Positions 14,711 through 29,490 of a stretch of 39,898 bases of DNA are shown piece by piece (position 1 is the first letter of the stretch; every line of letters begins with the position of its first letter). Under the pieces are notes generated by a model. That model was given only the letters and a program-made list of their open reading frames with translations, had not been told where the DNA came from and searched no databases. The stretch comes from a virus: the IMG/VR virus record IMGVR_UViG_3300044826_000111, positions 1 through 39,898 of that record, one strand, 5' to 3'. Both the position numbers and the translations under genes were made by a program.

Positions 14711-14724
14711 GTATAACTTTATAC
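14711..14724. promoter_or_regulatory. Operator-like inverted repeat, variant copy
   Basis: GTATAACTTTATAC differs by one base from the 14-bp repeat found at 23561, 24228 and 27391. It lies in the 168-nt gap between the ejection genes and the fibre cassette. On the minus strand a good promoter spans it (TTGACT, 18 nt, TATACT), which would point antisense into the ejection gene. On the plus strand the hexamers are weak (TTAGTT, 18 nt, TATACC). Confidence 0.6.
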
Positions 14725-14833
14725 CTACTTATAAGTCAAGTACCCTGTTATTTCCAACATCCAGTTAATATCATAGTAAAGAAATGCCAGCACGTTATAA
14801 GATGCAGTTAACACAAAAAATTTGCGAGGACAT

Positions 14834-15622
14834 ATGCCATTTAACTCTGGAGTAGGCGGGAACAAGGTTGTACCATTTTTCGGAGGCGGGTGCGTGCCAA
14901 ACCCCTGTAATTGTATCATAGCACAGGTTGCACCTTCTACAAACAACACAGAAAGCCCTATCGGCACAATATACGTCAACACAGCGACGTCGACACTATA
15001 TATATGCGTAGCAAACACAGGCCCTGCTGGAAGCGTAACATGGGAACAAATTGGTCTTTCTACTGGTACGGTAGCAACCCTTACAGGTGGTTCTGGCGGT
15101 GCAATTGCCCCAAGTGCTGGTAACATTACTCTAGCTGGTACAGCAAACCAAATCACCACAACAGGCTCAGGAAGTACGATCACATGGTCACTACCTGCGG
15201 CTCTTACAGCCCCAGGCTCTGTAACAGCTACAACAACATTAACAGCAACTCTCGGAGATATCACAGCTACTAACGGTAACTTTGTTTCTAGTGCTGCTGG
15301 TAAAGGATTCTCAGCTGTTGTCACAACTGCATCAGGCGCAGCAAGTGGACCAGTAGTATGTAATGGTCGAGTAGGTTCATGTAGCTTTACAAGCCCATCA
15401 GTAGCAGCTGGAGCTTCTGTAACATTCACAATTACCAACTCAGCAATTACTGGATCATCAACTGTTGTCCTGTATAGTTTTAGAGGTGTAACAGCAAGTT
15501 CAGCCCTATCAATACTTAGCGTAACAAATAGTGCCGGATCATCAGCTATCGTAATGACAAACGGTACAGGCGCGACAACTTCGACAGCTACAATTACTTT
15601 TGACTTTATAGTCCTTAACTAA
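14834..15622 (+). CDS. Tail-fibre protein 1
   Basis: 262 residues from ATG 14834, with GCGAGGA just upstream. The open frame reaches TTG 14822 without need. The N-terminus is Gly/Cys-rich (GGGCVPNPCNC). Next comes a collar with IGTIYVNTATSTLYICVAN, then a repeating NITLAG...ITTTGSGSTITW prism-like segment, and a Ser/Thr/Ala-rich beta domain at the C-terminus. It is the first of six fibre or fibre-associated genes and probably joins them to the tail. Confidence 0.75.
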   Translation: MPFNSGVGGNKVVPFFGGGCVPNPCNCIIAQVAPSTNNTESPIGTIYVNTATSTLYICVANTGPAGSVTWEQIGLSTGTVATLTGGSGGAIAPSAGNITLAGTANQITTTGSGSTITWSLPAALTAPGSVTATTTLTATLGDITATNGNFVSSAAGKGFSAVVTTASGAASGPVVCNGRVGSCSFTSPSVAAGASVTFTITNSAITGSSTVVLYSFRGVTASSALSILSVTNSAGSSAIVMTNGTGATTSTATITFDFIVLN

Positions 15623-15630
15623 GAGGCAAT

Positions 15631-15981
15631 ATGTCTAACGTAAAATCTAGATTACTGCCAGAGCCAATAAGAACGGTAAATAGTGCCTCATTTGATGGCA
15701 CTACTTTCTTGCCTTTCAAAAATGCGGCCGCAGCAAATTCCCCCATTACCAACCCATCGAGATGCTTAATCATAGTAAATGATTCAGGCGTTAAAGCATT
15801 TATCTCTTGGGATGGAAGCAATGACAACATTGTGATACCAGCTGGCGGATCGTTTATCTTTGATGAGCAAAGTAATGCTGTGCCTAACTGTGACTATGTT
15901 ACCGCCGCAGCAACACAGTTTTATGCTCGTGGTGCAGCATCTACAGGCTTAGTGTACTTATCAACCTTTTACGCAGCTTAA
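15631..15981 (+). CDS. Fibre-associated structural protein
   Basis: 116 residues, beta-rich, without the repeats of its neighbours. It has VNSASFDGTTFLPFKNAAA near the start, a SRCLIIVNDSG strand and a final GLVYLSTFYAA. It starts 8 nt after fibre gene 1 and ends 8 nt before fibre gene 2. It is probably a small virion or fibre-collar protein; I do not recognise a named family. Confidence 0.65.
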   Translation: MSNVKSRLLPEPIRTVNSASFDGTTFLPFKNAAAANSPITNPSRCLIIVNDSGVKAFISWDGSNDNIVIPAGGSFIFDEQSNAVPNCDYVTAAATQFYARGAASTGLVYLSTFYAA

Positions 15982-15989
15982 GGAGCATT

Positions 15990-16481
15990 ATGTCACAGCT
16001 TTTCACAGCAGTAACAGGTAATGTCCCAAGTAATGTGCCTATAAATTTTATCACAAACTCAGGTACTGCAACATCATCTAGCAACAATATTAACGTTGTT
16101 GGTTCGGGTGGTGTCTCTACATCAGGTTCAGGTAATACTGTCACTATCACTGCTACAGCTTCAATCATACCATGGACGGATGAAGCTGTAAGTTTTACGG
16201 CAGTTGTTAATAACGGATACTTTGTTACTTCTGAAGGTCAAACAGCCACACTTCCGGCTGCACCTACACAAGGACAAGTAGTTATTATAGAATGCGATAC
16301 TTCAAGCCCAGTAACTATACAAGCCAATACTGGCCAAAATATTAGATTAGGCGCCCAATTATCCTCAATCAACGGGTCTGCTGTGAGTAATAGTTTAGGT
16401 GATTCTGTATATCTCGTTTATAGAAGTGCTAGTTCCACATGGTTCAGCATTTCTACCGAGGGAACTTGGACAATCTTTTAA
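15990..16481 (+). CDS. Tail-fibre paralogue 2
   Basis: 163 residues. A repeat segment (INVVGSGGVSTSGSGNTVTI) is followed by a C-terminal domain shared with the genes at 17193 and 18446: aromatic start (IPWTDEAVSFTAVVNNGYF), LPAAPTQGQ, QANTGQNIRLG, and a final strand WFSISTEGTW. The shared domain is probably a trimer-forming or receptor-contact module. Confidence 0.7.
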   Translation: MSQLFTAVTGNVPSNVPINFITNSGTATSSSNNINVVGSGGVSTSGSGNTVTITATASIIPWTDEAVSFTAVVNNGYFVTSEGQTATLPAAPTQGQVVIIECDTSSPVTIQANTGQNIRLGAQLSSINGSAVSNSLGDSVYLVYRSASSTWFSISTEGTWTIF

Positions 16482-16494
16482 ATAAAGGCATCTT

Positions 16495-17184
16495 ATGGGC
16501 GTTCCTGCAAATGCAATTGATATCACACAAGCTGGCTTAGTCAAATTTGACGGCACAAGCGTTTTCACAGGTGTGACTGTTACAAATCACGGCACATTAG
16601 TCGGAGCTGCGTCTAATGGCATTACTAGCGTTGGGCCGAGTGTAACTACTGGAGCTGTGTTGAAGTCTGGTGGAGCATCAGCAGACCCAGCATATAGTTC
16701 ATCTTTTACTCTGTCTGCTTCGGATGTTATGACAAACACAGCACAGCCTGGGTGTCAGTCTTTCGTTAATACAGCACAGACAAACGTTACTGGTGATGGA
16801 ACAAGTTTCGATGTAATTTTTGATGGAATATCAGACCAACAGGGCAGTGACTATAACACTACGACAGGCAAATATACCTGTGCGGTATCTGGTTATTATT
16901 TTGTTGCTTATTCTGTCACTTTTACGGGTATTACTTCTGCAATGACCGATGGTCAAGCTAAGATACTGTCATCTGCCGGAACAATCACTAGAAAGAACTT
17001 TAGCGCTGCTGCTTCTAAAACCGCATCTAACGAAATGTCAATTAGCGACTCTGTGATTACTTTTCGCAACGCTGGTGAAACCATATACATCAACATCAAT
17101 ATTGATAATGGCGCAAAAGTTGCTAGCACTAAAGACGACTTTTTTGGCCCATTTTGCTACTTCAGCGTATTTAAGTTAGCATAA
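16495..17184 (+). CDS. Tail-fibre paralogue 3 with a C1q-like domain
   Basis: 229 residues. The N-terminal 45 (MGVPANAIDITQAGLVKFDG, then TGVTVTNH and AASNGITS) match the N-termini of the genes at 18446 and 19045 and are probably the virion anchor. From about residue 82 a C1q/TNF-like jelly roll is visible: NVTGDGTSFDVIFDG, TTTGKYTCAVSGYYFVAYSV and a final FCYFSVFKLA. C1q-like domains form trimers, fitting a fibre tip. Confidence 0.78.
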   Translation: MGVPANAIDITQAGLVKFDGTSVFTGVTVTNHGTLVGAASNGITSVGPSVTTGAVLKSGGASADPAYSSSFTLSASDVMTNTAQPGCQSFVNTAQTNVTGDGTSFDVIFDGISDQQGSDYNTTTGKYTCAVSGYYFVAYSVTFTGITSAMTDGQAKILSSAGTITRKNFSAAASKTASNEMSISDSVITFRNAGETIYININIDNGAKVASTKDDFFGPFCYFSVFKLA

Positions 17185-17192
17185 GGATTTAA

Positions 17193-17882
17193 ATGCCAGG
17201 TTTCGAAGACCAAGTACTTTGGTGCGCAAACCAAAACTTCAGTGACCCCACTGGCTCTGCATTCCACCATCTAGGCGAATTTACGGCCGCTGGAGATATT
17301 GCAATCGGTACAGGTGGCGTATCTCCCGCACAACAAATAGCTGTGGGTCACTTAGTAGGTACCGGCGGTATCACAATAGGCTACAGCACACCAAACATCA
17401 CCATTGATGGCTCGGGAGCTGGATCTTCTCTTACTGTACATACAGATGGCTCAGATGCTGTAGAGTCCGCAGGAGCTATATCGATAGTAGGCGCTGGTGG
17501 CATTACTACTAGTGGCTCAGGTAGCACAATAACTATCACTGGTTCCGGTGGTGGGGGACTCGCTTGGTCGACTATATCAGCATCGCAAACTCTGGCTGTA
17601 AACAATGGCTACTTCTGTACAGGTGGAGGTGCGCTTTCGCTTGCTCTACCTGCTGTAGCTGCCGTTGGTGACACGATCGAGATTTATCTGGATGGTTCGA
17701 CAGGCTTCACCATTACTCAAGCTGCTGGGCAGTCTATTAAGTTTGGCGCACAGGTAAGCACAGCAGGTGTTGGTGGAAGCATTTCATCTACTGGCCAAGG
17801 AGACGGCATAACGATGGTGTGCAGGACTGCCAACTTGAGATTTTTAATTACTGCCTGTATGGGCAACTTGACCTTCGTATGA
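17193..17882 (+). CDS. Tail-fibre paralogue 4
   Basis: 229 residues. N-terminal FEDQVLWCANQNFS is unlike its neighbours. The centre carries glycine-rich repeats (ISIVGAGGITTSGSGSTITI), and residues about 125-229 are the shared C-terminal domain (GLAWSTISASQTLAVNNGYF, then LPAVAAVGDTIEIYLDG, QAAGQSIKFGAQ and the ending MGNLTFV). The HNH gene follows directly. Confidence 0.7.
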   Translation: MPGFEDQVLWCANQNFSDPTGSAFHHLGEFTAAGDIAIGTGGVSPAQQIAVGHLVGTGGITIGYSTPNITIDGSGAGSSLTVHTDGSDAVESAGAISIVGAGGITTSGSGSTITITGSGGGGLAWSTISASQTLAVNNGYFCTGGGALSLALPAVAAVGDTIEIYLDGSTGFTITQAAGQSIKFGAQVSTAGVGGSISSTGQGDGITMVCRTANLRFLITACMGNLTFV

Positions 17883-17927
17883 TAAAATGATATTGTATCC
17901 ACAAACAACTAAAATACGAGGTAGTTT

Positions 17928-18428
17928 GTGGAAAAAATATGCAAAAGATGTGGAGTATCTAAAAAAATACAGAAGTTTAAAACTGACAAACGTCGTGATG
18001 ATGGTCGCTCAGCTTGCTGTAGAGAATGCTATGAAACAAAACAACTTGAAGTGTGGAAACGAACTCCAGAACAAATAGAAGCGCAACGGTCAAAACTTCA
18101 AGGCCGAAAATATAGTTTAGAACATCGTTTGGCGATTTCTAAAGGGCAAAAAATAGCTGTAAAAGAAGGCCGACATCATTGGAAGAGAAATGACTTTGAA
18201 AATGAAGATCAAGATAGATGTCATATAGCTTACAAGATTTGGAAGGAAAAACTTTTAGAGCGATGTGGTGGAAAATGTGAGACTTGCGGAAAAACCGAAA
18301 GATTACATGCTCATCACATAGAATGTTTTTATAAACGTCCCGAACTTAGGTTCGAGATAAATAACGGAAAAATCCTATGCATATCGTGTCATATGCGATT
18401 ACATAGGAGTAAAAAAATGCCCTCATAA
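17928..18428 (+). CDS. HNH endonuclease with zinc-finger and NUMOD-like middle
   Basis: 166 residues from GTG 17928, preceded by GAGG. An N-terminal KICKRCGV...CRECYE four-Cys site is followed by a basic segment GRKYSLEHRLAISKGQK of NUMOD3 type, and then the HNH core CGGKCETCGKTERLHAHHIE with a final ILCISCHMRLH. It is a freestanding mobile nuclease gene inserted between two fibre paralogues. It appears to have removed or altered the start of the next gene (see 18446). Confidence 0.88.
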   Translation: MEKICKRCGVSKKIQKFKTDKRRDDGRSACCRECYETKQLEVWKRTPEQIEAQRSKLQGRKYSLEHRLAISKGQKIAVKEGRHHWKRNDFENEDQDRCHIAYKIWKEKLLERCGGKCETCGKTERLHAHHIECFYKRPELRFEINNGKILCISCHMRLHRSKKMPS

Positions 18429-18445
18429 TAGGGCTGGAGGCTTTT

Positions 18446-19045
18446 ATCGCAACAAATAATGCAGTAAATATTTCAAGTGCGGGTTTGGTTCGCTACGATG
18501 GAGCAGGAAGTTTCACTGGCGTCACTGTTACAAACCACAATGTACTTATTGGCGCAGCATCTAACGGCATTACCTCTTTGGCTTTGACTAATGGCCAGCT
18601 GGCTATTGGCTCAACAGGAGCAGATCCGAGCGCTGCTACTCTTACAGCTGGTACTGGTGTAAGCATTACAAACGGCGCAGGCAGCATAACCATATCTGCT
18701 GGTACTGGTGGCCTTACTTGGAGTGTTATCACTGCTGACCAGACTGTAGTTGTAGGAAACGGCTACATATGCAACAAGGGTTCAGTGTTAACCTTAACAT
18801 TACCAGCTAGCCCATCTGTAGGCGACTTCTTCGCTGTTACTGGTATTAACACAGCTTTAGGATGGAAGATAGGCCAGCCAGCTACACAGCAGATCTTCAT
18901 GGGTACAAGCTCGACAACGGTAGGAACAGGTGGTTCTTTAGCTAGTATCAATATACGAGATACCCTATCACTTGTTTGCGTGGTGGCAGGTACAGCCGCT
19001 GTTTGGCAAGTAATTTCATCTATGGGCAACGTAACGGTGGTATAA
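18446..19045 (+). CDS. Tail-fibre paralogue 5, apparently starting at ATC
   Basis: Alignment with the paralogues at 16495 and 19045 places the first residue at 18446, where the codon is ATC rather than ATG: ATNNAVNISSAGLVRYDG follows it. A strong GGAGG (18436-18440) stands 5 nt upstream. The next possible start (TTG 18485) would lose 13 conserved residues and has no ribosome-binding site. The body has the virion anchor (TGVTVTNHNVLIGAASNG), a glycine repeat, then the shared C-terminal domain ending MGNVTVV. About 199 residues. Either a very rare ATC start, a start lost to the HNH insertion, or a sequencing error. Confidence 0.7.
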   Translation: MATNNAVNISSAGLVRYDGAGSFTGVTVTNHNVLIGAASNGITSLALTNGQLAIGSTGADPSAATLTAGTGVSITNGAGSITISAGTGGLTWSVITADQTVVVGNGYICNKGSVLTLTLPASPSVGDFFAVTGINTALGWKIGQPATQQIFMGTSSTTVGTGGSLASINIRDTLSLVCVVAGTAAVWQVISSMGNVTVV

Positions 19046-19641
19046 TGGCAACGCAAAATAGCATAAATCTAAAATCCTCAGGAATAGTGACTTATGATGC
19101 AGCGGGCACTTTTACGGCAAGCACAGTTACAAACCATGGTGTTGTAACGGCTCAAGCTAATAACTTAGTGACCTCTGTCGCCCCAGGTACTAGTGGTAAT
19201 GTTCTTACTAGCAATGGTACTGACTGGACTAGCGCTGCTTCAACATCTGGAGCAAAATATAGCACTGGCTTTGGAATGTCGACAACTTTCTCTCCGTTAG
19301 ATGCAACTACTTATTTTGTGGGTTTTGCACAGACCACACTTGCCACTACTTGTGGTCAAATCCCTATCCCTGTAGCTGGAACTATAAATACTTGCTATGT
19401 AGTAATTAGATGTACAGCAGGAACGGCCGAAACATCTACAATTTCATTAAGATTAAACAATACAACTGATTTTACCATTTCATCGGCAGTAAATTTAAGT
19501 GCAGCACAAACTTCATGGGGAACAACATCCCTTGGAATAACTGTTGCAGCAGGAGATTTTGTACAAGTTAAATGGGTAACCCCGACATGGGCAACCAATC
19601 CGCTCACAACTCAAATATCCTGCGGTTTTATAGTATCATGA
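19045..19641 (+). CDS. Tail-fibre paralogue 6
   Basis: 198 residues from ATG 19045, overlapping the previous stop (TAATG). It has the shared anchor (INLKSSGIVTYDAAG, then TVTNHGVVTAQANN), a short SGNVLTSNGTDW linker typical of fibre necks, and a C-terminal beta sandwich of a different kind from its neighbours (TAETSTISLRLNNTTDFTIS, QVKWVTPTWA). It is the last gene of the virion operon. Confidence 0.72.
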   Translation: MATQNSINLKSSGIVTYDAAGTFTASTVTNHGVVTAQANNLVTSVAPGTSGNVLTSNGTDWTSAASTSGAKYSTGFGMSTTFSPLDATTYFVGFAQTTLATTCGQIPIPVAGTINTCYVVIRCTAGTAETSTISLRLNNTTDFTISSAVNLSAAQTSWGTTSLGITVAAGDFVQVKWVTPTWATNPLTTQISCGFIVS

Positions 19642-19659
19642 GTTAATTAAGCTATAGAC

Positions 19660-19694
19660 ACCACCCCTATTGCGATAAAGCAACCAGGGGAGGT
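19660..19694. terminator. Hairpin between convergent operons
   Basis: A two-part stem: ACC-A-CCCCT (19660-19668) pairs with AGGGG-A-GGT (19686-19694), and inside it TTGC-GATAAA-GCAA forms a second hairpin. It lies 18 nt after the last fibre gene and 19 nt before the end of the converging leftward operon, the usual place for a bidirectional terminator. Neither side has a strong U-run, so it may be only part of a terminator. Confidence 0.5.
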
Positions 19695-19713
19695 TCTGTG
19701 CGTTTAAACACCA

Positions 19714-19899
19714 TTACGCATCAAGACCATAAAGCCTAAACGCGTTCTTTGGGTTAGGCTTACACCTCGTACCCTGAGCCCATCGCCTAAGCTTGTCATC
19801 ACGTCTAAAGCACTCCCGGCATTCGCCATTGCAGAACTTGTCACAGGAGTACTTGGTGTTAAACTTATTCTTGCATTGCACGCACGTTTTCTCAAACAT
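19714..19899 (-). CDS. Four-Cys zinc-ribbon peptide (61 residues)
   Basis: MFEKTCVQCKNKF starts the protein, and the second half of the site is CNGECREC, giving a CxxC...CxxxCxxC cluster that should bind zinc. The tail is basic (RRDDKLRRW). AGGTG precedes the start. It is the last gene of the leftward replication operon. It probably binds nucleic acid or protein; no specific role can be given. Confidence 0.7.
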   Translation of the reverse strand: MFEKTCVQCKNKFNTKYSCDKFCNGECRECFRRDDKLRRWAQGTRCKPNPKNAFRLYGLDA

Positions 19900-19908
19900 A
19901 ACACCTCG

Positions 19909-20217
19909 TTAAAAAGGGCAATCATCATCAGAAACTGACATTTCCATAGGCATCTCAGCCTTAGGCATAGTAGCAATAGCCTCAAGCACAGCCTTAGTGA
20001 ACGCGTCTTTCTTGCTACGCTCCATGAACACATAAGCGAAGAATTGGTCTGTGCCATCATCAGCCTTGTACTTGCGTGAGGGGAAGTTAATCCAGCGCTT
20101 ACCGTCTTTTTCCATCACTGTGCAGTTACGGAATGTGACGCCCCATTGCTCGACTTCGATGTCAAGACTAGCGGCTACGATGCCTTTGTTTAGCAGTTTA
20201 AAGTTGTGTATGATCAT
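19909..20217 (-). CDS. SpoVG-like conserved phage protein
   Basis: 102 residues: KLLNKGIVAASLDIEVEQWG, then FRNCTVMEKDGKRWINFPSR and a helix KKDAFTKAVLEAI. The order of strands, the GKRWINFPSR turn and the C-terminal helix resemble the SpoVG fold, a small DNA- or RNA-binding protein. The tail ends DDDCPF; acidic DDxxPF tips are typical of single-stranded DNA-binding proteins that recruit partners. It may therefore serve as the phage ssDNA-binding factor. That is inference. Confidence 0.6.
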   Translation of the reverse strand: MIIHNFKLLNKGIVAASLDIEVEQWGVTFRNCTVMEKDGKRWINFPSRKYKADDGTDQFFAYVFMERSKKDAFTKAVLEAIATMPKAEMPMEMSVSDDDCPF

Positions 20218-20437
20218 CGAACATCTCCTGGCATATAGCGCAACTATGTTGTTTAATTTTATCTACGGCATTAGTTACATCACTATACTCTAAATTTGCA
20301 CGTAAAATCCAGGATATTACCTGCGGTAATAAATCGCTAATGTTAATCTTATTTTTTTTACAATATTGTTCTACTTGTAAAGCAGTTACAACATTTTCTA
20401 GAGACATATCGTCTAAAATTGAAAGTTCCAATCCCAT
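20198..20437 (-). CDS. Hypothetical 79-residue protein of the replication operon
   Basis: Mostly helical (ENVVTALQVEQYCKKNKINI, then LLPQVISWILRANLEYSD), ending with HSCAICQEMFDDH, where CxxC plus two histidines could hold a metal. It overlaps the downstream gene by 20 nt and lies one base after the initiator stop. No known family is recognised. Confidence 0.65.
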   Translation of the reverse strand: MGLELSILDDMSLENVVTALQVEQYCKKNKINISDLLPQVISWILRANLEYSDVTNAVDKIKQHSCAICQEMFDDHTQL

Positions 20438-20438
20438 C

Positions 20439-21374
20439 TTAATACCTTATTGTTGATTTATATTTTTCCATAAGTTGTGTAGCAAAAGTTTCTGGCTTCT
20501 GTCGTAGCGGAATATCTACCGTTGAGCTACCTAGATTGAAGCTTACAAAGTTAGTGGTAATCTTAAGATCTCCCCAGCCATGAGCAGCCTTAAAGTCCTC
20601 AGCAAATTTAGCGCATTCTACGGCATCATCGCTTCTAACAAAGGCATTTCTCTTAAGAAGTGCGTTCATGTAACCGCCAAAGTTTGTACGAGGAAGGCGG
20701 CAAGCATCACGGTGAACTTCCATTAGCCTTTCAAAAGAATAGGTCTTAGCCCAATAGCAAAGCGTGCCCTCATTTTCATTTGGCATAAGGTCTTTGAGGC
20801 AATTAAAGACTTCAATCTGCTGAGCATCGAGTTTAAACTTCTTTGTAGGCTGTTCCGGTGTCTTTGTTTTGAAGGAAGCCCTTTTGGGCAGAACAATGTC
20901 TTTAATCCCCTTTGGGGTTTCTGATCTGGGTTTTCTATGTTGCGAAGAATTTACATCCCCCTTGTGAGGATTTACACCCCCCCCGAATTTGTTTTCTAAT
21001 TTATCTAATTCTTTGTCACGCTTTTCGTCTTTAGCAAGTAAAACACAGAGAGCAGCCTTGTCAATATAAAAATATCTAAATGAATTACCTGGATCTATAT
21101 AATATCTTATTACTTGTTCATAGATTAATTTCTTGATACAGATCTGTTGACGGTATCGGCTTAGATTTGTCCTCTCTGTCATGTCTCTATTGGAAATGAA
21201 GAACCAGCCATCTAAGTCGTTTTTGTTCACAAGTTTCTTTTGCTGTTCATAAAAGTCGTACTTATCCAAAAGCTCACTTAAAAATATTGCTGTATCATTG
21301 CCAAGAAGTTTGGCGATAGATCTGTTGCCGGTGAAATAATTCGACCCATTAACTAACTGATGAAGCGATTGCAT
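20439..21374 (-). CDS. Replication-initiation-like protein
   Basis: 311 residues. The N-terminus (IAKLLGNDTAIFLSELLDKY, then FFISNRDMTERTNLSRYRQQ) is a winged-helix domain like those in phage O-type or DnaD-related initiators: it would read DNA through the SRYRQQICIKKLI helix. A flexible Lys/Pro-rich linker spans about residues 125-180. A helical C-terminal domain follows (QQIEVFNCLKDLMPNENEG). It is the first gene of a leftward operon and probably recruits a host helicase, as the phage has no recognised DNA polymerase. Confidence 0.65.
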   Translation of the reverse strand: MQSLHQLVNGSNYFTGNRSIAKLLGNDTAIFLSELLDKYDFYEQQKKLVNKNDLDGWFFISNRDMTERTNLSRYRQQICIKKLIYEQVIRYYIDPGNSFRYFYIDKAALCVLLAKDEKRDKELDKLENKFGGGVNPHKGDVNSSQHRKPRSETPKGIKDIVLPKRASFKTKTPEQPTKKFKLDAQQIEVFNCLKDLMPNENEGTLCYWAKTYSFERLMEVHRDACRLPRTNFGGYMNALLKRNAFVRSDDAVECAKFAEDFKAAHGWGDLKITTNFVSFNLGSSTVDIPLRQKPETFATQLMEKYKSTIRY

Positions 21375-21580: not shown

Positions 21581-22069
21581 ATGGATCTCCAAATTTTAAC
21601 CACAATTTTCTGCTTTATTTCCTTAGTCCTTGGCTTCACAGCACTTAACGCACTATCTAACCTTAAGCGCAAGGTAAATGCGCATTTAGACAGAACAGAC
21701 TTACACTCCGAAAAGCTCCAGACAATCCTCAGCATACTTCAGCAAATTGAGGCTAAACAGGATCTCATGTTTAACAATGCGCCGCCGGTTCCTGGTGAAA
21801 CTGCACCATCACAAGAACCACTTTATGAATACAAAGAGTATGGCATAAAAGTCCCTGCACGTAATATTCATAAAGACAGTTCTGGCACTCACTGGGTCAT
21901 TGAAGAGGCAAAGAGACTGCAAGAACAACAAGAAGTTCTTCCATCTTCTTTGACTTATCAAAAAACATTTGTTCCTGAAGGAACCACACCTATTTTTCTA
22001 CCTCAAACTAAAAAAAAGCGTAAGGACGCGGGTGTTAAGCGCGGCCCTTACAAAAAAGCTACGATTTAG
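21581..22069 (+). CDS. Single-pass membrane protein with coiled coil and basic tail
   Basis: 162 residues. An N-terminal membrane segment (LQILTTIFCFISLVLGFTAL, residues 3-22) is followed by a short helix with coiled-coil character (residues 30-65), a Pro-rich linker, and a strongly basic C-terminus (KKKRKDAGVKRGPYKK). It is a lone rightward gene inside a leftward region, with its own inverted-repeat control, and it overlaps the ERF gene tail-to-tail by 11 nt. A spanin, superinfection-exclusion or DNA-anchoring role is possible; none is proven. Confidence 0.75.
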   Translation: MDLQILTTIFCFISLVLGFTALNALSNLKRKVNAHLDRTDLHSEKLQTILSILQQIEAKQDLMFNNAPPVPGETAPSQEPLYEYKEYGIKVPARNIHKDSSGTHWVIEEAKRLQEQQEVLPSSLTYQKTFVPEGTTPIFLPQTKKKRKDAGVKRGPYKKATI

Positions 22070-22703
22070 AAGGCTTAGCAAGCTTAGTTTTCATAAACTC
22101 ATCTATTTTCTCTTTAAGTCTACCAAGCTTTTCCGGATTAGCTATAGCCGACTTAATGACAGCTTCAACAGTATATCCTGTGGATGCCGCAAATTCAGCC
22201 AGAAACGGGGCTAGATGCGCTTTATCAATATGGGTGTCTACCTTGGCAAGGGCAATAACAAAAGAGTCCATTGATGGAGGTTCTGTTGGCTTTACCTCAA
22301 CCTTAGGTTTACGCTCCATTGCTTCCTCACCATCATCATCAAACTGAGATATGCTTAACATTGAAGAATAAGCATAACGTCTGTAGTAGGTGATGGCTTT
22401 ACCAACAGATTGAGCGTCTGGCTTGTCAGTGACTATAGGGATGAGTCCTTTAATCCATTGCCCAGACTTATGCAACAGGATAGTGGACAGAAATAGCTGT
22501 CCATCAATCATTTCTGTAGGCTGAACTACACTCAGTCCATTCTCTTTTAGCGCTTCCTTAGCGCAAGTAATAACGCTATGTATATCGGCGTATTTGCTTT
22601 TATAAAATGGATTAGTGGAATCCGTTACAGCACCTTGTATAGCACCTTGTGCAGCACTTAGTGCGGTCGCCAGTTCGTTGATTTCTTCACTTTGCATGTT
22701 CAT
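22059..22703 (-). CDS. erf: ERF-family single-strand annealing protein
   Basis: 214 residues. The ERF signature is clear: NELATALSAAQGAIQ, NPFYKSKYADIHSVI, ALKENGLSVVQPTE, then GKAITYYRRYAYSSMLSISQ and a following DDDGEEA. ERF proteins form rings on single-stranded DNA and anneal homologous strands during phage recombination and genome circularisation. The C-terminal third is a separate helical domain with a basic tail. The start ATG 22703 has AAGGA upstream. It works with the exonuclease at 23581 and the RusA resolvase at 24849. Confidence 0.92.
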   Translation of the reverse strand: MNMQSEEINELATALSAAQGAIQGAVTDSTNPFYKSKYADIHSVITCAKEALKENGLSVVQPTEMIDGQLFLSTILLHKSGQWIKGLIPIVTDKPDAQSVGKAITYYRRYAYSSMLSISQFDDDGEEAMERKPKVEVKPTEPPSMDSFVIALAKVDTHIDKAHLAPFLAEFAASTGYTVEAVIKSAIANPEKLGRLKEKIDEFMKTKLAKPSKS

Positions 22704-23001: not shown

Positions 23002-23025
23002 CTTAATCACCTCCAAGTTTCAAGT

Positions 23026-23220: not shown

Positions 23221-23291
23221 AAAGTTCATCCTTTTTTGAGTTATAATGCATTACAAGTGCATGGTTATTTAGTTACATTTTCATTCCTTGG

Positions 23292-23326: not shown

Positions 23327-23535
23327 CATTCATCAAAGTCAAAAGAATCGATATAATCTTCAGCAAGAAAGCATATAAGCTCGTGTGCTCTTTTGGAGTC
23401 TGCTCCAAATTTATAGCAGTCATACGGCACTGGGTTATCTTTAAGCTCGACCCTATATAATCGGCAAAGGTCTTCAAGTTCAAGTGCCGCTTCGTGAGCA
23501 TTTAGCTCTTTTGGGTTGTAGTCATCATCGTCCAT
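23326..23535 (-). CDS. Hypothetical acidic 69-residue protein
   Basis: MDDDDYNPKELNAHEAALEL at the start, and an equally acidic end (DYIDSFDFDE), around a helix (EDLCRLYRVEL) and a Cys/Tyr-containing loop. It has AGGTG upstream and lies 25 nt from the operator-bearing promoter at 23560, so it begins its own leftward transcript. Acidic phage proteins of this size are often inhibitors or DNA mimics, but nothing here proves it. Confidence 0.65.
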   Translation of the reverse strand: MDDDDYNPKELNAHEAALELEDLCRLYRVELKDNPVPYDCYKFGADSKRAHELICFLAEDYIDSFDFDE

Positions 23536-23559
23536 AACTCACCTTTTGTGTATAGCCTG

Positions 23560-23588
23560 AGTATAACATTATACATCACATTAATCAA
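23560..23588 (-). promoter_or_regulatory. Leftward promoter with embedded operator (site at 23561-23574)
   Basis: On the minus strand TTGATT (23588-23583), a 17-nt spacer and TATACT (23565-23560). The exact 14-bp repeat GTATAACATTATAC (23561-23574) covers the -10 box and half the spacer. A protein bound there would block RNA polymerase. It drives the genes from 23535 leftward and lies within the 3' end region of the exonuclease gene. Confidence 0.8.
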
Positions 23589-24186
23589 GCACTTTTGCAT
23601 TATTTAATTCTTCCCAATACTTATGTGCCTCTGAGATACAGTCTGAGAGGATATTTTCATCAAATGTAAACTCGTAAACAACAGGATCTAGCGGCGTATA
23701 TATGACGCGACCGATGTTAGAATTAGCATCTTGGCGTATTTTCTTTTGGTGCCTTAAATTGATCCACATCATATTGTCAGATACACTTATGCCGTTTACA
23801 TCAAGTAAATACCAATAAAAGTGAGCTTGCATCTCCCAGACCTTCTTGTTTGGTAAAGCGGAGCACTTCCAATCTATTAAGTTGAACTTATTCAGCAAGC
23901 CATCGCATTCGCCTGTTATCTTAAGATCATGGCAATATAGCCTTGGTATCTGACGTATATTCATGCCAGGACAAGCCCATCGCTTATAGCTATCAAAGTA
24001 AGCCTGCGCACGATCTGTTTCGAGCACCGGGAACTCGCCGGCACAGTCATCTACAATAGCTTTATGTACATTTGTGCCTATCTTGGCTTTAGCTTCTAGC
24101 ACTTCCGGGTCTATATCTCCGAAGTTATAAAACCTTTTCAGTATGTCACTAACCCTCACACAGCCTTTTAGATCAACATCTTGCAT
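23581..24186 (-). CDS. PD-(D/E)XK exonuclease (RecB/Cas4-like)
   Basis: 201 residues. Nuclease elements in order: GTNVHKA (His 41), ITGECDGL (Glu 93 to Asp 95), LIDWKCS (Asp 105 and Lys 107) and WEMQAHFYWYL (Gln 120). This is the RecB-type PD-(D/E)XK pattern of phage exonucleases. It should resect double-stranded DNA ends to feed the ERF annealing protein. It is the first gene leftward from the central divergent promoters, with AGGTG upstream of ATG 24186. Confidence 0.85.
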   Translation of the reverse strand: MQDVDLKGCVRVSDILKRFYNFGDIDPEVLEAKAKIGTNVHKAIVDDCAGEFPVLETDRAQAYFDSYKRWACPGMNIRQIPRLYCHDLKITGECDGLLNKFNLIDWKCSALPNKKVWEMQAHFYWYLLDVNGISVSDNMMWINLRHQKKIRQDANSNIGRVIYTPLDPVVYEFTFDENILSDCISEAHKYWEELNNAKVLD

Positions 24187-24213
24187 ATTTCACCTTTTTT
24201 TGTTGTTACTTGC

Positions 24214-24247
24214 TTGACTATATCTAGGTATAACATTATACTCAAGG
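24214..24247. promoter_or_regulatory. Overlapping divergent promoters with shared operator (24228-24241)
   Basis: Rightward: TTGACT (24214-24219), 17 nt, TATACT (24237-24242). Leftward on the minus strand: TTGAGT, 17 nt, TATAGT, using the same DNA. The exact repeat GTATAACATTATAC at 24228-24241 overlaps the rightward -10 and the leftward spacer, so one bound protein could shut both directions. The Cro-like gene starts 24 nt further on. This is the natural early control switch of the phage. Confidence 0.85.
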
Positions 24248-24264
24248 GAAAACATCGGAGGCAT

Positions 24265-24570
24265 ATGAATCTACGCGAATGGTTAGACGAGGAAATAATG
24301 GAAATTCGTGAGTTTGCAAAGAGGATAGGCGTTAGCAGATTGACGATATACAACTGGCTGTATAAGTCTACGAAACCATTACGAATAACGCAGTTGATAG
24401 TACAAAGGGAAACAGACGGTAAAGTAACACTTGAATCATGGGAGACATTAAATGACAAAAAACAATCTGATAAGCGTTTACGAGGCACAAAAGATAATGA
24501 ATTGCGGAGCACACAACGTGTGGTTGTTGATAAGAAGATTAAGCCTAAAAGCAGTCAAAAGAGGCGGTAA
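24265..24570 (+). CDS. Cro-like helix-turn-helix regulator
   Basis: 101 residues from ATG 24265, with GGAGG at 24257-24261. Residues 13-38 form the helix-turn-helix: REFAKRIGVSRLTIYNWLYK, followed by RITQLIVQRETDGKVTLES, the usual ending of Cro/CI-type domains. The remaining tail is very basic, of low complexity, and read in another frame over the next gene for 119 nt. It lies directly beside a GTATAA operator, and I infer that it binds the repeats at 14711, 23561, 24228, 27391 and 29476. No separate CI-type repressor with a cleavage domain is visible. Confidence 0.82.
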   Translation: MNLREWLDEEIMEIREFAKRIGVSRLTIYNWLYKSTKPLRITQLIVQRETDGKVTLESWETLNDKKQSDKRLRGTKDNELRSTQRVVVDKKIKPKSSQKRR

Positions 24571-24856
24571 ATGGCATACATGCGAAGAATGGATTGAAGA
24601 ATACTACGAGAATAGACGCTCTAAAGAGCATCACAGTATCTTTAATGGACGTAAGGTGTTCAATGAGAATGAACTAAGTGTGCAGACAGTGGCGGCGGAG
24701 CTTGGTACTACAGTGCAGGCAGTACATTATCATTTAACCGCAGGCAATCTTAAATCGATACAGAAAGGATCATATCATGTGATCTTACGCTCTGATCTAG
24801 AAGAGTTTAAGGCTAAGAAAGAATTTTATGTGAAGGACAAAGCAAATAATGCTTGA
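24452..24856 (+). CDS. Two-domain HTH / excisionase-like DNA-binding protein
   Basis: 134 residues. Two similar DNA-binding units: ISVYEAQKIMNCGAHNVWLL with AVKRGGKWHT, then SVQTVAAELGTTVQAVHYHL with SIQKGSYHVILRSDLEEF. Each resembles the helix-turn-helix and wing of MerR/excisionase (HTH_17) proteins. GGGAGA precedes ATG 24452. It could be a second regulator, or an excisionase partner of the integrase-like protein at 39397. It overlaps the Cro-like gene in a different frame and RusA by 8 nt. Confidence 0.75.
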   Translation: MTKNNLISVYEAQKIMNCGAHNVWLLIRRLSLKAVKRGGKWHTCEEWIEEYYENRRSKEHHSIFNGRKVFNENELSVQTVAAELGTTVQAVHYHLTAGNLKSIQKGSYHVILRSDLEEFKAKKEFYVKDKANNA

Positions 24857-25307
24857 TGAGATGACAATAAAAGAGTATCAAGATGTGTATAGGTTGCGCA
24901 TGTTTATATTTGAAATTCACTCAGTACCAAAACCCCAGAAGCAGACACTGCAAGGTGTTTCGTTCTCTGGGCGTAAGCAATTCTATGATCCATCTAGTAT
25001 GAACAAGAAGCAAATACAATGGCAAGTGCAGCCTCATGCCCCAAAGGAGCTCCTCCAAGGCCCAATCGAGATGCACTTGACCTTCTACATGCCTATACCT
25101 AAACAAATTCGAGCAACAGAGCGCCATGCGATGATTAACAATGTGGTAAAGCATTACAAGCGCCCTGACATTGACAACCTGGCTTATGTTGTGACTAATG
25201 CGCTTAAGGGAGTTGTGTATCGAGATGATAGCCAAATATGTGTTATGAGGCTTGAAAAGCGTTATGGTGAAGAGCCTAAGACTGTAATCATGGTGAAGGA
25301 AGTATGA
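24849..25307 (+). CDS. rusA: RusA-family Holliday junction resolvase
   Basis: 152 residues. The RusA core is intact: KRPDIDNLAYVVTNALKG (Asp 107, Asp 109, Asn 110, Lys 120) and VVYRDDSQI (Asp 126, Asp 127), with VPKPQKQ near the start. RusA dimers cut four-way junctions and branched DNA left by recombination or packaging. It belongs with ERF and the exonuclease. It overlaps both neighbours by a few bases. Confidence 0.92.
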   Translation: MLDEMTIKEYQDVYRLRMFIFEIHSVPKPQKQTLQGVSFSGRKQFYDPSSMNKKQIQWQVQPHAPKELLQGPIEMHLTFYMPIPKQIRATERHAMINNVVKHYKRPDIDNLAYVVTNALKGVVYRDDSQICVMRLEKRYGEEPKTVIMVKEV

Positions 25308-25486
25308 GATTTATTTATGAGCATGATGAGGAAGAGGACTTTGTAGAAATACATCTCAATGAGAAAGAGCTTAATCATATGTTGAAGGATGAGACATCTC
25401 AGCTACAAATTGATTTACCCGCTTGCCTGCATACTCGTAGATCGACTAATGTACTTGTCAGAAGAACAATTATTAACAAATCTTAG
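25304..25486 (+). CDS. Hypothetical 60-residue acidic protein
   Basis: Overlaps the RusA stop (ATGA) after GAAGGAAG. The N-terminal half is strongly acidic (HDEEEDFVEIHLNEKELNH) and the C-terminal half is basic (RRSTNVLVRRT). It meets the converging HNH gene tail-to-tail with a 4-nt overlap, so its last residues may have changed when that gene was inserted. Function unknown. Confidence 0.6.
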   Translation: MRFIYEHDEEEDFVEIHLNEKELNHMLKDETSQLQIDLPACLHTRRSTNVLVRRTIINKS

Positions 25487-26025
25487 TGACAAATATGTTT
25501 ATGATGAGCAAGTGAATGACACATTGGGCACAAAACTTTAAGGTTTTCTAGAGAATTATTATGTCTATTACCATCAACATGATGTACTCCAAGTATATCT
25601 GGAACAGTGTTATATCCACATTCTACACAACTATTTATAAGCCCTTTTTTGATCATAGCTTTTCTTACTGTTGTGAAAACTGGTTTAAATTCTTTATGAT
25701 TTCCTTTTCCAGTGCACGACTTAGAGCAGAATTTTCTGTTTCTCGAAGGAGAATCATAAAATGCTTTTTCGCAATATTGGCAAGTATGTTTTACACTTCC
25801 TCTACCAACCAACGATTTGTAATAGCATTTTCTAGAGCAATATTTAGCTTTATTGGATCTGCTAGAAATATGTTCAAATATCTTGTTGCAAAATTCACAA
25901 GGTCTTATGATTTTAACTCTTACAAACAACGCACCACAACTTCTAGAGCAGTACTTGGCAGTATTTGTTCTATATTTTTTAACAAAGAATATTTTTTTAC
26001 AATTAAGACAACTTAAGGAGACCAT
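25483..26025 (-). CDS. HNH endonuclease with zinc-finger repeats, antisense insertion
   Basis: 180 residues. Three treble-clef-like zinc sites are repeated: CLNCKKIFF...[14 protein letters not shown]...CSRKC and CQYCEKAFY...CSKSC. The HNH core follows ([36 protein letters not shown]). It is transcribed against all genes around it. Its start codon abuts that of the rightward gene at 26026, the two forming CATATG. A+T content is visibly higher than in the neighbours, as expected of a mobile gene. Confidence 0.88.
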
Positions 26026-26166
26026 ATGCCACTCAAAAAAGGTAAATCAGAAAAAACTATCAGCAGTAATATATCGGAATTGCGACATTCTGGTCACCCA
26101 GAAAAGCAATCAATTGCTATAGCTATGTCTAAAGCAGGAAAAGGCAAAAAGAAAAAGGCTAAATAA
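26026..26166 (+). CDS. Small basic conserved phage protein (46 residues)
   Basis: [20 protein letters not shown], then a helix with [21 protein letters not shown] recognise this pattern from short phage proteins (DUF6496-like) of unknown function. GGAGA precedes ATG 26026. The stop overlaps the next ATG. It would bind nucleic acid by its charge; no role is proven. Confidence 0.72.
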
Positions 26167-26375
26167 TGAGTGAGTTTATTGTTAAGACTGCTAAAGACTG
26201 GAAGCACTCAGAGACTGATCTGCCAGAAGTGGGTAAGACTGTTGAAGTGCTATGTACTATGATAACGAGAGCCTCACTAGTGGGCACTGATCCTAAACAG
26301 CTATGGCAGCAGGAGCAGGGCATGGATGAAGCACAAACAGAAGTTAAGCTATGGAGAGAATTAGATGATTCGTGA
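26166..26375 (+). CDS. Hypothetical 69-residue protein, weakly DUF551-like
   Basis: KDWKHSETDLPEVGKTVEVL near the start and a terminal VKLWRELDD recall the DUF551 pattern (W...LPE...V...W..L) seen in the 36.5-39.3 kb family, but with a divergent middle. It overlaps both neighbours (TAATG and an 11-nt overlap). Function unknown. Confidence 0.6.
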   Translation: MSEFIVKTAKDWKHSETDLPEVGKTVEVLCTMITRASLVGTDPKQLWQQEQGMDEAQTEVKLWRELDDS

Positions 26376-26559
26376 TGACTTTTTACAGTGGAAGATTGAG
26401 CAACCAGCATTTACAAATGATGAAGTGTATTTTAGGGATAAGTTTGGTGTGACTATAACGCCATTCTGTAAGTGCTTGTTTAATGAGCTCATGGATATGC
26501 AAAAGAAGCTAGGTGATCTACAGGCCGCTGTAAACTACCTACGCCAAGAGATAGAGTAG
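26365..26559 (+). CDS. Hypothetical 64-residue protein
   Basis: Mixed composition with a C-terminal helix of coiled-coil character (LFNELMDMQKKLGDLQAAVN). It is the last gene of the rightward early operon, ending 4 nt before the terminator stem at 26563. No known domain is visible. Confidence 0.62.
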   Translation: MIRDDFLQWKIEQPAFTNDEVYFRDKFGVTITPFCKCLFNELMDMQKKLGDLQAAVNYLRQEIE

Positions 26560-26562
26560 CAT

Positions 26563-26592
26563 GGGGCCGGATTATCTTCCGGCGCCCTTTTT
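26563..26592 (+). terminator. Intrinsic terminator of the rightward early operon
   Basis: GGGGCCGG (26563-26570) and CCGGCGCCC (26579-26587) form a GC-rich stem with one bulged G and an 8-nt loop, followed by TTTTT (26588-26592). It ends the operon that starts at 24242. It overlaps the 3' end of the converging gene at 26572. Confidence 0.8.
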
Positions 26593-26751
26593 CTTATTAT
26601 CAGCAGTGCGCTTCAGCTTGCTGACATAGTCTTTACCGCTAGAGGCTAGGACAAGGGCTGTCTGCTTGATGGCATGGCGCTTGTCTTTTAGGTTATTGAT
26701 GTCGCGGATGTCTTGTTTATATGCTTCGAGAGCTTCTTCCCATGTCGTCAT
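26572..26751 (-). CDS. Small basic helical protein (59 residues)
   Basis: MTTWEEALEAYKQDIRDINN starts a helical, Lys-rich protein ending KRTADNKKKGAGR. ATG 26751 is preceded by GGAAATATT, as in the gene at 26766. It is the last of three leftward genes. Its 3' end overlaps the opposing terminator, an economical arrangement. Function unknown. Confidence 0.65.
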   Translation of the reverse strand: MTTWEEALEAYKQDIRDINNLKDKRHAIKQTALVLASSGKDYVSKLKRTADNKKKGAGR

Positions 26752-26765
26752 AATATTTCCTATTA

Positions 26766-26969
26766 TTAAGATAATTTATTTATTATCATTTTATATAATT
26801 CTTCAGAAACTAACGATGCATAACTGGGATCTGTTACTTCGTCAACATACCAAATTGCTAGAGCATTGAACATTGCGTATGCTTCTTTTTTCGATACATT
26901 ATTTTCACTCATAATGTCGAAAAGTTCGCTTCCGATTTTGCTTAGCCAAACAACTCTTTCATTTGTCAT
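26766..26969 (-). CDS. Hypothetical 67-residue helical protein
   Basis: MTNERVVWLSKIGSELFDIM, then a helix KKEAYAMFNALAIWYVDEV. AGGAAAT stands 4 nt before the start. It is predicted soluble. It is the middle gene of a three-gene leftward unit driven from the operator promoter near 27391. Confidence 0.65.
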   Translation of the reverse strand: MTNERVVWLSKIGSELFDIMSENNVSKKEAYAMFNALAIWYVDEVTDPSYASLVSEELYKMIINKLS

Positions 26970-27015
26970 AATATTTCCTATTAGTTATTTGTTTGTCTCT
27001 AGAAAATGCCGATTT

Positions 27016-27300
27016 CTAATCATCTGGAGACTTTGGTAATGCACGTTTCTGCCAGCCAAAGCCATCATTGACAAAGGGGCACTTTTCCGTGGAGTTGTTA
27101 AGTTGATCACATATCCATTGTGCTAGCTCTTCTGGATAATCGTCACCATCATCTAAGTTGTCATCGGGAGCACATCGCCAGCCTGGAGAAATAGTTACCT
27201 TGTAGAAATCGTTTATATCGCCTGAACGTTGATAGATAACCCATTTTTGCTTTTCAATGCGCCATTCTTTTGTTTCGCGGTTGTATACTTTATATAGCAT
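27016..27300 (-). CDS. Hypothetical 94-residue protein
   Basis: Begins MLYKVYNRETKEWRIEKQKW with alternating charged and aromatic strands, then an acidic loop (PDDNLDDGDDYPEELAQW) and a final KRALPKSPDD. It is the first gene leftward from the 27391 operator. Its acidic loop is reminiscent of small phage regulatory proteins, but no function can be assigned. Confidence 0.65.
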   Translation of the reverse strand: MLYKVYNRETKEWRIEKQKWVIYQRSGDINDFYKVTISPGWRCAPDDNLDDGDDYPEELAQWICDQLNNSTEKCPFVNDGFGWQKRALPKSPDD

Positions 27301-27343
27301 TGTACATTCCTTTATGTTGTTGTTATCTTCACGCTACAACCTG

Positions 27344-27360
27344 CTCGAGTCGGGCTCGAG
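27344..27360. repeat. Pair of CTCGAG palindromes 5 nt apart
   Basis: CTCGAG occurs at 27344-27349 and again at 27355-27360, inside a CCTG...CAGG frame, in the leader of the leftward unit and just upstream of the terminase operon. The two copies could pair to form a GC-rich stem. A control element or a packaging-related site is possible; evidence is positional only. Confidence 0.35.
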
Positions 27361-27377
27361 ATGTCAGGGAGACTGTG

Positions 27378-27422
27378 TTGATGTGCTTGAGTATAACATT
27401 ATACATGATATAGTGCAAGCGA
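27378..27422. promoter_or_regulatory. Divergent promoters with operator (27391-27404), terminase operon
   Basis: The exact repeat GTATAACATTATAC lies at 27391-27404. Leftward: TTGCAC, 17 nt, TATACT, toward the gene at 27300. Rightward: TTGAGT (27387-27392), 16 nt, TATAGT (27409-27414), toward the terminase genes; an alternative rightward pair is TTGATG (27378-27383) with TATACA. The layout matches the switch at 24228, so terminase and early genes seem to share a regulator. Confidence 0.8.
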
Positions 27423-27485
27423 TATTTGTTGTGTGATAAATAACTGTAAGATAACATCAAGTTAATCAACGAGATAGAGGTAATT

Positions 27486-27956
27486 ATGGCAGCACCAAAG
27501 GGTAATCAGTATGCTAAGGGCAGTGTGAATAATGGCAGGCCTTTGATCTATGATGATGAGCGTATTGAAGAAGAGGCTGCTGCATTACTGGAATGGATCA
27601 AGGTTGATAGCGATGCCAAATTATATATAGGTTCTTTTGCAAGAGAACGTGGTTATGATAGGGCTCGTCTCTCAGAATTCGCCCGTGCAAATAATGTTTT
27701 TGCGCGCGCTTATGCTCTTGCTAAGATGTGGCAAGAGGAGAAATTCATTAGAAATGGACTCAATAGATCATGGGATGCTGGCTTTACAAGCAAGGTGATG
27801 GCTAGGGTTTGTGGCGATGAATGGAAGAACTCTTGGGATAAGGACACGGCTAATGAGAATATTGCTGCTTTAGCCACTGCTGTCATGAATTACGCAACTG
27901 CACAACCACAGGATAAGGGATGGCAGAAGCCAGAAGAGAAGCCCAAGAAAAAATAG
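27486..27956 (+). CDS. terS: Terminase small subunit
   Basis: 156 residues. The opening MAAPKGNQYAKGSVNNGRPL is widespread among phage small terminases. A helix-turn-helix-like region follows (IGSFARERGYDRARLSEFA), then a helix AYALAKMWQEEKF, and a basic end (KPEEKPKKK). The subunit recognises the packaging start site and recruits the large subunit. GAGG stands upstream of ATG 27486. It overlaps terL by 37 nt. Confidence 0.85.
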   Translation: MAAPKGNQYAKGSVNNGRPLIYDDERIEEEAAALLEWIKVDSDAKLYIGSFARERGYDRARLSEFARANNVFARAYALAKMWQEEKFIRNGLNRSWDAGFTSKVMARVCGDEWKNSWDKDTANENIAALATAVMNYATAQPQDKGWQKPEEKPKKK

Positions 27957-29254
27957 TCATACCTTATGGCTATGACCCAAGGTGGTATCAGCTACCATTA
28001 CTCACGGCTCTAGACCGCGGGTGTAAGCGCGCTATATGGTGTGTGCATCGTAGAGCAGGCAAAGACCTTACCTTATGGAACTGGATCGTTAAGCAGGCAT
28101 GGGCTAAGCCTCAGATATGCTATTACATATTCCCGACATATTCACAGGCGAAGAAGGTGATCTGGGATGGCATGACCAAGGATGGCAAGCGCTTCATTGA
28201 CTTTATCCCGCCACAGATCATTAAACAGAAGAATGGCTCAGAGCTTAAGATAAGGCTTACCAACGATTCACTCATACAGCTTATAGGCTCTGATGACATA
28301 GACAAGCTTGTGGGTACTAACCCTAGCATATGCGTGTTTAGCGAGTTTGCACTACAGAGGCCTGATGCTTGGAGCTTCCTTCGACCTATCTTAGCAGAGA
28401 ATGACGGTACTGCGATATTCCAATCAACACCTCGAGGCAAGAACCATTTCTGGGACTTAATCGAGATGGCCAAGGGCAATCCTAACTGGTTTGTTGAGAT
28501 ACTAGGCGTTAATGAGACAAAGGCTATCGACCAAAAGGCTATAGACAAGGAAGTAGAGGATGGCATGTCGCCTGATATGGTGGCTCAGGAGTTCTATTGT
28601 AGCTTCGATCTAGGCGTTGAAGGATCATACTATGCTAAGTACTTGCTTGAGGCTAAGAATGAGGAGCGTATCTGTTCCGTGCCTTGGGATAGGACTAAGC
28701 GTGTGCATACGGCCTGGGATCTGGGCTATAACGATAGCACCTGCATCATATGGTTTCAATGTCATGGACAGGTCATCAACATTATAGACTTTTATGAGGA
28801 TAACACTAAGGGTTTAGACTTCTACGCTAAGGTGCTCCGTGACAAGCCATATCAATATGACAAGCACTTCATCCCACACGATGGCAATCAGCATGATAAG
28901 CAGACAGGACTTACATACACGGCCAAGGCGCGTGAGTTTGGGCTTACAATGACTACATTGCCTCTTAACTCAATTGACGCTGGTATAGAGACAGCTAGGG
29001 GTATGTTTCACCGATGCTCATTCGATAACAAGAAGTGTGCTCAGCTACTGAAGTGCTTAGAAAACTATAGGAAAGCTTATGACGATAAGAATCGAGTCTA
29101 TAAAGAACGCCCTGTGCACGATTGGAGCTCACATGCCTCAGATGCTTTCCGCTATCTTTGCACTGCGGTCAAGAACAACCTTGACCAAGGCACAGGACCC
29201 GGCGATGACTGGGTTGACGGCATGCTTAACAAATACCAACCAAGGTTTACATAA
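27920..29254 (+). CDS. terL: Terminase large subunit
   Basis: 444 residues. ATPase: adenine-binding WYQ (residues 22-24), Walker A HRRAGKDLT (43-51), Walker B CVFSE (138-142) and coupling STPRG (169-173). Nuclease: AWDLGYND (265-272, Asp 267), and a terminal HDWSSHASDAFRYL (Asp 408) of RNase H type. It pumps DNA into the procapsid through the portal and cuts concatemers. The motifs are complete. Confidence 0.95.
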   Translation: MAEARREAQEKIVIPYGYDPRWYQLPLLTALDRGCKRAIWCVHRRAGKDLTLWNWIVKQAWAKPQICYYIFPTYSQAKKVIWDGMTKDGKRFIDFIPPQIIKQKNGSELKIRLTNDSLIQLIGSDDIDKLVGTNPSICVFSEFALQRPDAWSFLRPILAENDGTAIFQSTPRGKNHFWDLIEMAKGNPNWFVEILGVNETKAIDQKAIDKEVEDGMSPDMVAQEFYCSFDLGVEGSYYAKYLLEAKNEERICSVPWDRTKRVHTAWDLGYNDSTCIIWFQCHGQVINIIDFYEDNTKGLDFYAKVLRDKPYQYDKHFIPHDGNQHDKQTGLTYTAKAREFGLTMTTLPLNSIDAGIETARGMFHRCSFDNKKCAQLLKCLENYRKAYDDKNRVYKERPVHDWSSHASDAFRYLCTAVKNNLDQGTGPGDDWVDGMLNKYQPRFT

Positions 29255-29264
29255 GGAGACAACC

Positions 29265-29465
29265 ATGGCTATACAAGACGCGATACTACACTTTGCAACA
29301 GCTCATAGCTCATTGCTATCAGCTCTTGAGAAGCTAGCTCTACATGAAGTGATTGCATTACTTAGAGGCTTGTACCCTAATGATCCTGCAATGATAGCTA
29401 TCATCCAAAAGATTAGCGACGAAGTACTTAAGCTCCAAGGCATCCAGCCAGATCAAAGCGCTTGA
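29265..29465 (+). CDS. Hypothetical 66-residue protein after terL
   Basis: MAIQDAILHFATAHSSLLSA, then EKLALHEVIALLRGLYPND: entirely helical and Leu/Ala-rich. AAGGAG lies 8 nt upstream of ATG 29265. It probably ends the terminase transcript, since a new promoter starts next to its stop. Function unknown. Confidence 0.65.
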   Translation: MAIQDAILHFATAHSSLLSALEKLALHEVIALLRGLYPNDPAMIAIIQKISDEVLKLQGIQPDQSA

Positions 29466-29490
29466 TTATTATCAGATATAATGTTATACT
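29462..29490 (+). promoter_or_regulatory. Promoter of the micro-gene operon, with operator variant (29476-29489)
   Basis: TTGATT (29462-29467), a 17-nt spacer and TATACT (29485-29490) make a strong promoter. ATATAATGTTATAC (29476-29489) is the reverse complement of the operator with one change. The operator again covers the -10. It starts the operon of tiny genes running to the portal. Confidence 0.8.

Follow-up and report, generated by a model that had tools for sequence, protein, structure and literature searches.

The window analysed here, a 39.9-kb IMG/VR virus record (G000 in comparisons) that, like its relatives, comes from an uncultured tailed phage, carries a 14-bp repeat at five places spread over about 15 kb. 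It raises the question of whether these copies are operators of a single regulon and, if so, which protein reads them. The sequence-only reading that drew attention to the repeat had placed it correctly, with a sequence match at all five positions. GTATAACATTATAC is exact at 23561-23574, 24228-24241 and 27391-27404, and the copies at 14711-14724 (GTATAACTTTATAC) and, on the minus strand, 29476-29489 (GTATAACATTATAT) each carry a single change. Read as a 14-bp palindrome, GTATAANNTTATAC or GTATAA-NN-TTATAC, the repeat is exact at 14711, 23561, 24228 and 27391 and has one change at 29476, and every other place in the window differs from it by at least two changes. A second-order Markov model gives an expectation of about 0.006 exact palindrome copies in the window, and in 100 dinucleotide shuffles, scored over all 6-bp half-sites with spacers of 0-10, the maximum count was 2 compared with the 4 observed. 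All five sites are intergenic, and intergenic DNA makes up about 7% of the window by our hand-made gene list; the repeat is therefore not equally frequent inside genes, a check suggested together with the original observation. One motif at several separate transcription units constitutes a dispersed-operator regulon in the broad sense. An operator-like sequence at 1491-1514, upstream of a minus-strand helicase gene, is degenerate, and this potential sixth site near 1501 was left out of the count with its two mismatches.

Each of the five sites lies in a predicted promoter. Site A (24228-24241, plus strand) lies between divergent promoters at 24214-24245, of which the plus promoter (TTGACT-17-TATACT) leads to a 101-aa Cro/YdaS-like helix-turn-helix (HTH) protein, the proposed repressor (24265-24570, plus), and the minus promoter (TTGAGT-17-TATAGT) to a Cas4/PD-(D/E)XK-like exonuclease (23581-24186, minus). 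A second DNA-binding protein with HTH_17 matches (24452-24856, plus) is encoded in the regulator operon. Site B (23561-23574, minus) is in the minus promoter TTGATT-17-TATACT at 23560-23588, which heads an operon towards the gene for an ERF single-strand annealing protein (22059-22703, minus). Site E (27391-27404, minus) is again placed between divergent promoters (27387-27418), the plus one (TTGAGT-16-TATAGT) leading to the putative terminase genes at 27486-29254 (plus; small subunit 27486-27956, assigned by position only, and large subunit 27920-29254) and the minus one (TTGCAC-17-TATACT) to an ORF at 27016-27300. The leader between site E and this ORF contains a perfect inverted repeat, CTCGAGTCGGGCTCGAG, at 27346-27362, possibly a hairpin. 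Site C, ATATAATGTTATAC (29476-29489, plus), is in the plus promoter TTGATT-17-TATACT at 29462-29490, which heads the micro-gene operon starting at 29512. The exonuclease and recombination genes, the terminase and the micro-gene operon, which had been proposed as the units under the repeat, all do carry sites, and the two sites described as common to divergent promoters, 24228 and 27391, are so arranged.

Site D (14711-14724), which reads GTATAAAGTTATAC on the minus strand, lies within the minus promoter TTGACT-18-TATACT at 14710-14739. We rejected the idea that this promoter serves the tail-fibre gene (14822), since it faces leftwards into a very small ORF. This putative 19-aa hydrophobic micro-ORF, MAFIVFLLFFIFLTFLCSD (14624-14683, minus), has AAGGAG upstream and is antisense to the end of a structural gene (13244-14665). 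Site D has orthologues in relatives G020, G025 and G027, and small ORFs occupy the place of the micro-ORF in all three, encoding peptides that are not homologous; they lie just after 24984 in G020, just before 21387 in G027 and just before 10852 in G025. In all four genomes the ORF has a good ribosome-binding site and points away from the tail-fibre gene. It is hydrophobic in the window (19 aa) and in G020 (39 aa), has a hydrophobic N-terminus in G027 and is not hydrophobic in G025.

The position of the repeat within these promoters is uniform. At all five sites the 3' half overlaps the -10 element of a host-type promoter, in the arrangement outer half-NN-T(TATAC)T, so that all five share one register covering the spacer and the -10. 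The -35 elements are TTG-type, the spacers measure 16-18 bp, and several sites have the TGN of an extended -10. These promoters are predicted from sequence as host-type (sigma-70-like). The earlier claim that four sites sit in good promoters was right about the placement and low in its count, as all five do so. When promoters were scanned without regard to the operator, the intergenic matches to 10 of 12 consensus positions were those at 14710 and 24214, both of which carry a site; at 9 of 12 positions, four intergenic matches carry a site (23560, 24217 on the minus strand, 27387 and 29462) and five do not.

Relatives were retrieved through the portal protein (66-89% identity), and contigs G001, G019, G020, G025 and G027, five related uncultured phages with portals 76-89% identical, were read at full length. 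Two more contigs, G022 and G023, are 100% identical to G020 over this region and were left out as non-independent. The group is without a close relative in the phage records searched. A near-identity DNA search of an annotated phage collection gave zero matches to the window. Among viral contigs, the searches that worked were those with the portal and with an alignment of the regulator; single-sequence searches with the regulator or the exonuclease returned nothing, and a scan with the second HTH protein (24452) added no genomes. Homologues of the regulator are encoded in G019, G027, G020/G023 and G025 at 32-49% identity.

The window's palindrome at fewer than two changes is absent from these relatives, except for two sites in G025 with one change each. 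When the promoter of each genome's own regulator was used as the query within that genome, every relative proved to have its own operator version at orthologous promoters. Written as outer half/-10 half, the versions are GTATAA/TTATAC in G000, GTAAAA/TTATAC in G025, GGGTAA/TTACAC in G027, TGATAA/TTATAG in G020 and CTTAAA/TTACAC in both G019 and G001, with the spacer half only partly palindromic in G019 (3/6) and G020 (4/6). Of the orthologous places, A separates the regulator from the exonuclease; B lies downstream of the latter and ahead of the recombination operon; C comes after the terminase large subunit (downstream) and ahead of the micro-gene operon; and D separates a tail-fibre-type gene from the gene upstream of it, its promoter facing away from the fibre gene. 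Weaker E-like sites precede terminase genes in G019, G020 and G024. Five genomes have the regulator gene, and in each of them a site lies in that gene's own promoter. G025 has an extra copy at 20625, between promoter and start codon and outside any recognisable -10. In G020 several sites are double: the two operators of an inverted pair overlap, offset by about one helical turn (site A reads CTATAACATTGTGATAAGGTTATAG). Paired operators therefore exist in the group, though the window uses single ones; of the earlier description as a dispersed regulon rather than paired operators, the dispersal stands, and the lack of pairing applies to the window and not to G020.

After site B, three genomes share a conserved leader, TTAAGCCATAAC, followed by an A-rich stretch and a GGAG ribosome-binding site (about 930-965 in G019, 11452-11480 in G020 and about 33575-33605 in G027; looser in G025). 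This leader is kept although the downstream genes differ, and is absent from the window. In the more distant relatives G030 and G029, and in a contig from a Chlamydiia metagenome-assembled genome (MAG), the regulators are divergent and no clear series of operators is seen; G030 has two palindromes of a different type, CTAATATATTAG at 8011 and CTATACTATTAG at 8657, which are too few to use.

The strongest evidence comes from the way in which the sites have diverged. Over the 12 specified bases of 18 sites, identity is 0.905 within a genome compared with 0.661 between genomes at the same place (p=5e-5, label permutation). Since similarity had been the initial route to several of the sites, the test was repeated on the best -35/-10 pair of each orthologous interval, chosen by hexamer match alone and blind to the operator. 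This blind choice recovered the same sites in 16 of 18 intervals, and for the outer (spacer) half alone, without any -10 base, identity was 0.77 within and 0.47 between genomes (p=5e-5). The flanks of the 18 sites upstream of the -35 and downstream of the -10 gave no within-genome effect. About 13 bp immediately upstream of the 14-mer also diverge in concert, and the true footprint may therefore exceed 14 bp. As sites are closer to others in their own genome than to their orthologues, they reflect more than inherited promoter sequence; such concerted divergence is the mark to be expected of operators read by one phage-specific protein per genome. Directly observed are the sites themselves, the register they keep in promoter-like sequences, the orthologous sites in relatives and the concerted divergence, and comparison with the relatives strongly supports a dispersed, promoter-embedded regulon.

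We consider it likely that a single repressor, encoded by the phage, uses the repeats as its operators, and that this repressor is most likely the 101-aa protein at 24265-24570. This protein matches the profiles HTH_3 (E=0.0018, below the curated cut-off), HTH_26 (0.0095) and YdaS (0.016), as well as the repressor family phrog_35 (2.8e-7). In its structure model, residues 1-60 are predicted with confidence and contain helices at 3-10, 14-21, 25-33 and 40-49, and a long fifth helix (57-82) is mostly of low confidence. The model fits the folds of YdaS, the nearest match, CylR2 and P22 c2 with probabilities of 0.96-1.00 but E-values of 0.1 or weaker, and profiles and model together give an Xre/HTH_3 helix-turn-helix fold. 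It is the best candidate binder of all the sites, since its own promoter has a site in every genome with the gene and its recognition helix varies between genomes. In G000, G025 and G027, which have G as the first base of the outer half, residue 25, the first of this helix, is Arg; G020, with T as the first base, has Tyr, and G019, with mostly C, has Glu. This link between Arg25 and the outer G, which is based on few cases (five genomes), makes sense because the first residues of helix 3 in the 434 repressor reportedly read the outermost base pairs.

The same operators could instead be bound by the second HTH protein (24452-24856), or by a complex of both proteins. Although this protein is encoded in the regulator operon, matches HTH_17 and is conserved among the relatives, we think this reading unlikely: it looks like a tandem winged-HTH protein, a type that fits a short palindrome less well, and its conservation (40-66%) is higher than that of the regulator (37-49%), yet the operators differ clearly between genomes. 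Smaller still is the chance that the repeat is not an operator but an extended -10/spacer promoter element for RNA polymerase, or for a modified or phage polymerase. The single orientation and register relative to the -10 and the TGN at several sites would agree with such an element. However, the -35 and -10 sequences are of the ordinary host type, no known promoter element corresponds to the spacer half, and the site is palindromic. In the relatives both halves have changed in concert, and the -10 versions TATAGT and TACACT are no closer to consensus; moreover, the additional G025 copy lies outside a recognisable -10, and the gene list, for which part of the ORFs were scanned, leaves no large unassigned gene fit for an RNA polymerase. 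Phages do borrow host regulators, and the sites might bind one that the phage exploits, but this we regard as very improbable. Phages with portals 76-89% identical have clearly different operators, and a diverging, phage-encoded partner therefore fits better than a shared host protein.

If the 24265 protein is the repressor, a symmetric dimer would bind the palindrome over the spacer and -10 of strong host-type promoters and exclude RNA polymerase from them. Repression by polymerase block is the natural reading, because half of each site overlaps the -10. Activation through spacer distortion of the MerR type is unlikely, as the spacers already measure 16-18 bp; MerR-type promoters have spacers of 19-20 bp. 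From its position between the repressor's own promoter and that of the divergent exonuclease, site A would combine negative feedback with control of the exonuclease. The other sites would shut off the recombination operon, the terminase unit together with its divergent neighbour, and the micro-gene operon, and site D would do so for a small transcript antisense to a structural gene. As the repressor accumulates after infection, these operons would be silenced together. Promoter activity, the identity of the binding protein, repression and timing are all inferred here from sequence.

Dispersed phage regulons are known already; here the sites are few, symmetric and entirely promoter-embedded, in a group with no integrase detected. 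The P1 C1 repressor acts on 22 dispersed asymmetric 17-bp operators in a lysogeny system (PMC8546580). The window resembles P1 in the proposed action of one repressor on many operators dispersed over a phage genome, but its five sites are symmetric, 14 bp long and all located in promoters, and a search for an integrase in it gave none. Cluster A mycobacteriophages have 20-30 asymmetric 13-bp stoperators, mostly outside promoters, which block elongation and have one orientation relative to transcription, and the repressor acts in lysogeny; the motif differs between relatives in step with the repressor (PMC6550527). Dispersed sites and a motif that differs between related phages are features of our group as well, whereas the window's sites are palindromic, few and all in promoters, and so do not qualify as stoperators. 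In Cro/YdaS systems of the lambda type, a small Xre-type HTH protein at a divergent promoter is followed by a second DNA-binding protein (PMC9986795). The window's regulator shares this arrangement, being a small Xre-type HTH protein at a divergent promoter with a second DNA-binding protein next to it. Lambda-type operators are clustered at an immunity region opposite a CI-type gene; the window's divergent gene, by contrast, is an exonuclease, and its sites are spread out. The repressor of phiC31, a temperate phage of Streptomyces, is said to bind symmetric inverted repeats dispersed at early promoters, a likeness to the present sites, but it is reportedly larger, unrelated to the window's regulator and served by more sites.

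A tyrosine or serine recombinase (PF00589, PF00239) was absent from the window and six related contigs in a search whose positive controls worked, although the contigs are possibly incomplete; the integrase or resolvase of a temperate-phage immunity system was thus not found in this set. For this reason the circuit may time the lytic cycle instead of maintaining lysogeny. Judged by eye, a 133-aa protein at 39397-39798 (minus) looks like the core-binding N-terminal part of a tyrosine recombinase, but lacks a catalytic domain; it has no Pfam or PHROG match. As to the host, contig CAINFV010000232.1 (L062/L096), a portal relative at 59% binned into the Chlamydiia MAG, keeps the order of regulator-, exonuclease-, RusA- and terminase-like genes, and hints at a chlamydial host, or else at a binning artefact.

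The group offers a natural series of closely related repressor-operator pairs, in five versions with several sites each, in which specificity has changed while the circuit was kept, so that the change of a recognition code at many sites at once can be tested. It suggests control by one protein in an uncultured phage group. Possible, if somewhat short of probable, is a wider proposal: that in a lineage with no detectable lysogeny module, a 101-aa Cro-like master repressor governs the major host-type promoters through an "immunity-like" operator code that is particular to each species and has changed in concert at several operons, along with the recognition helix, Arg25 reading the outer G. If this is true, repressor-operator speciation would here be driven by something other than prophage immunity.
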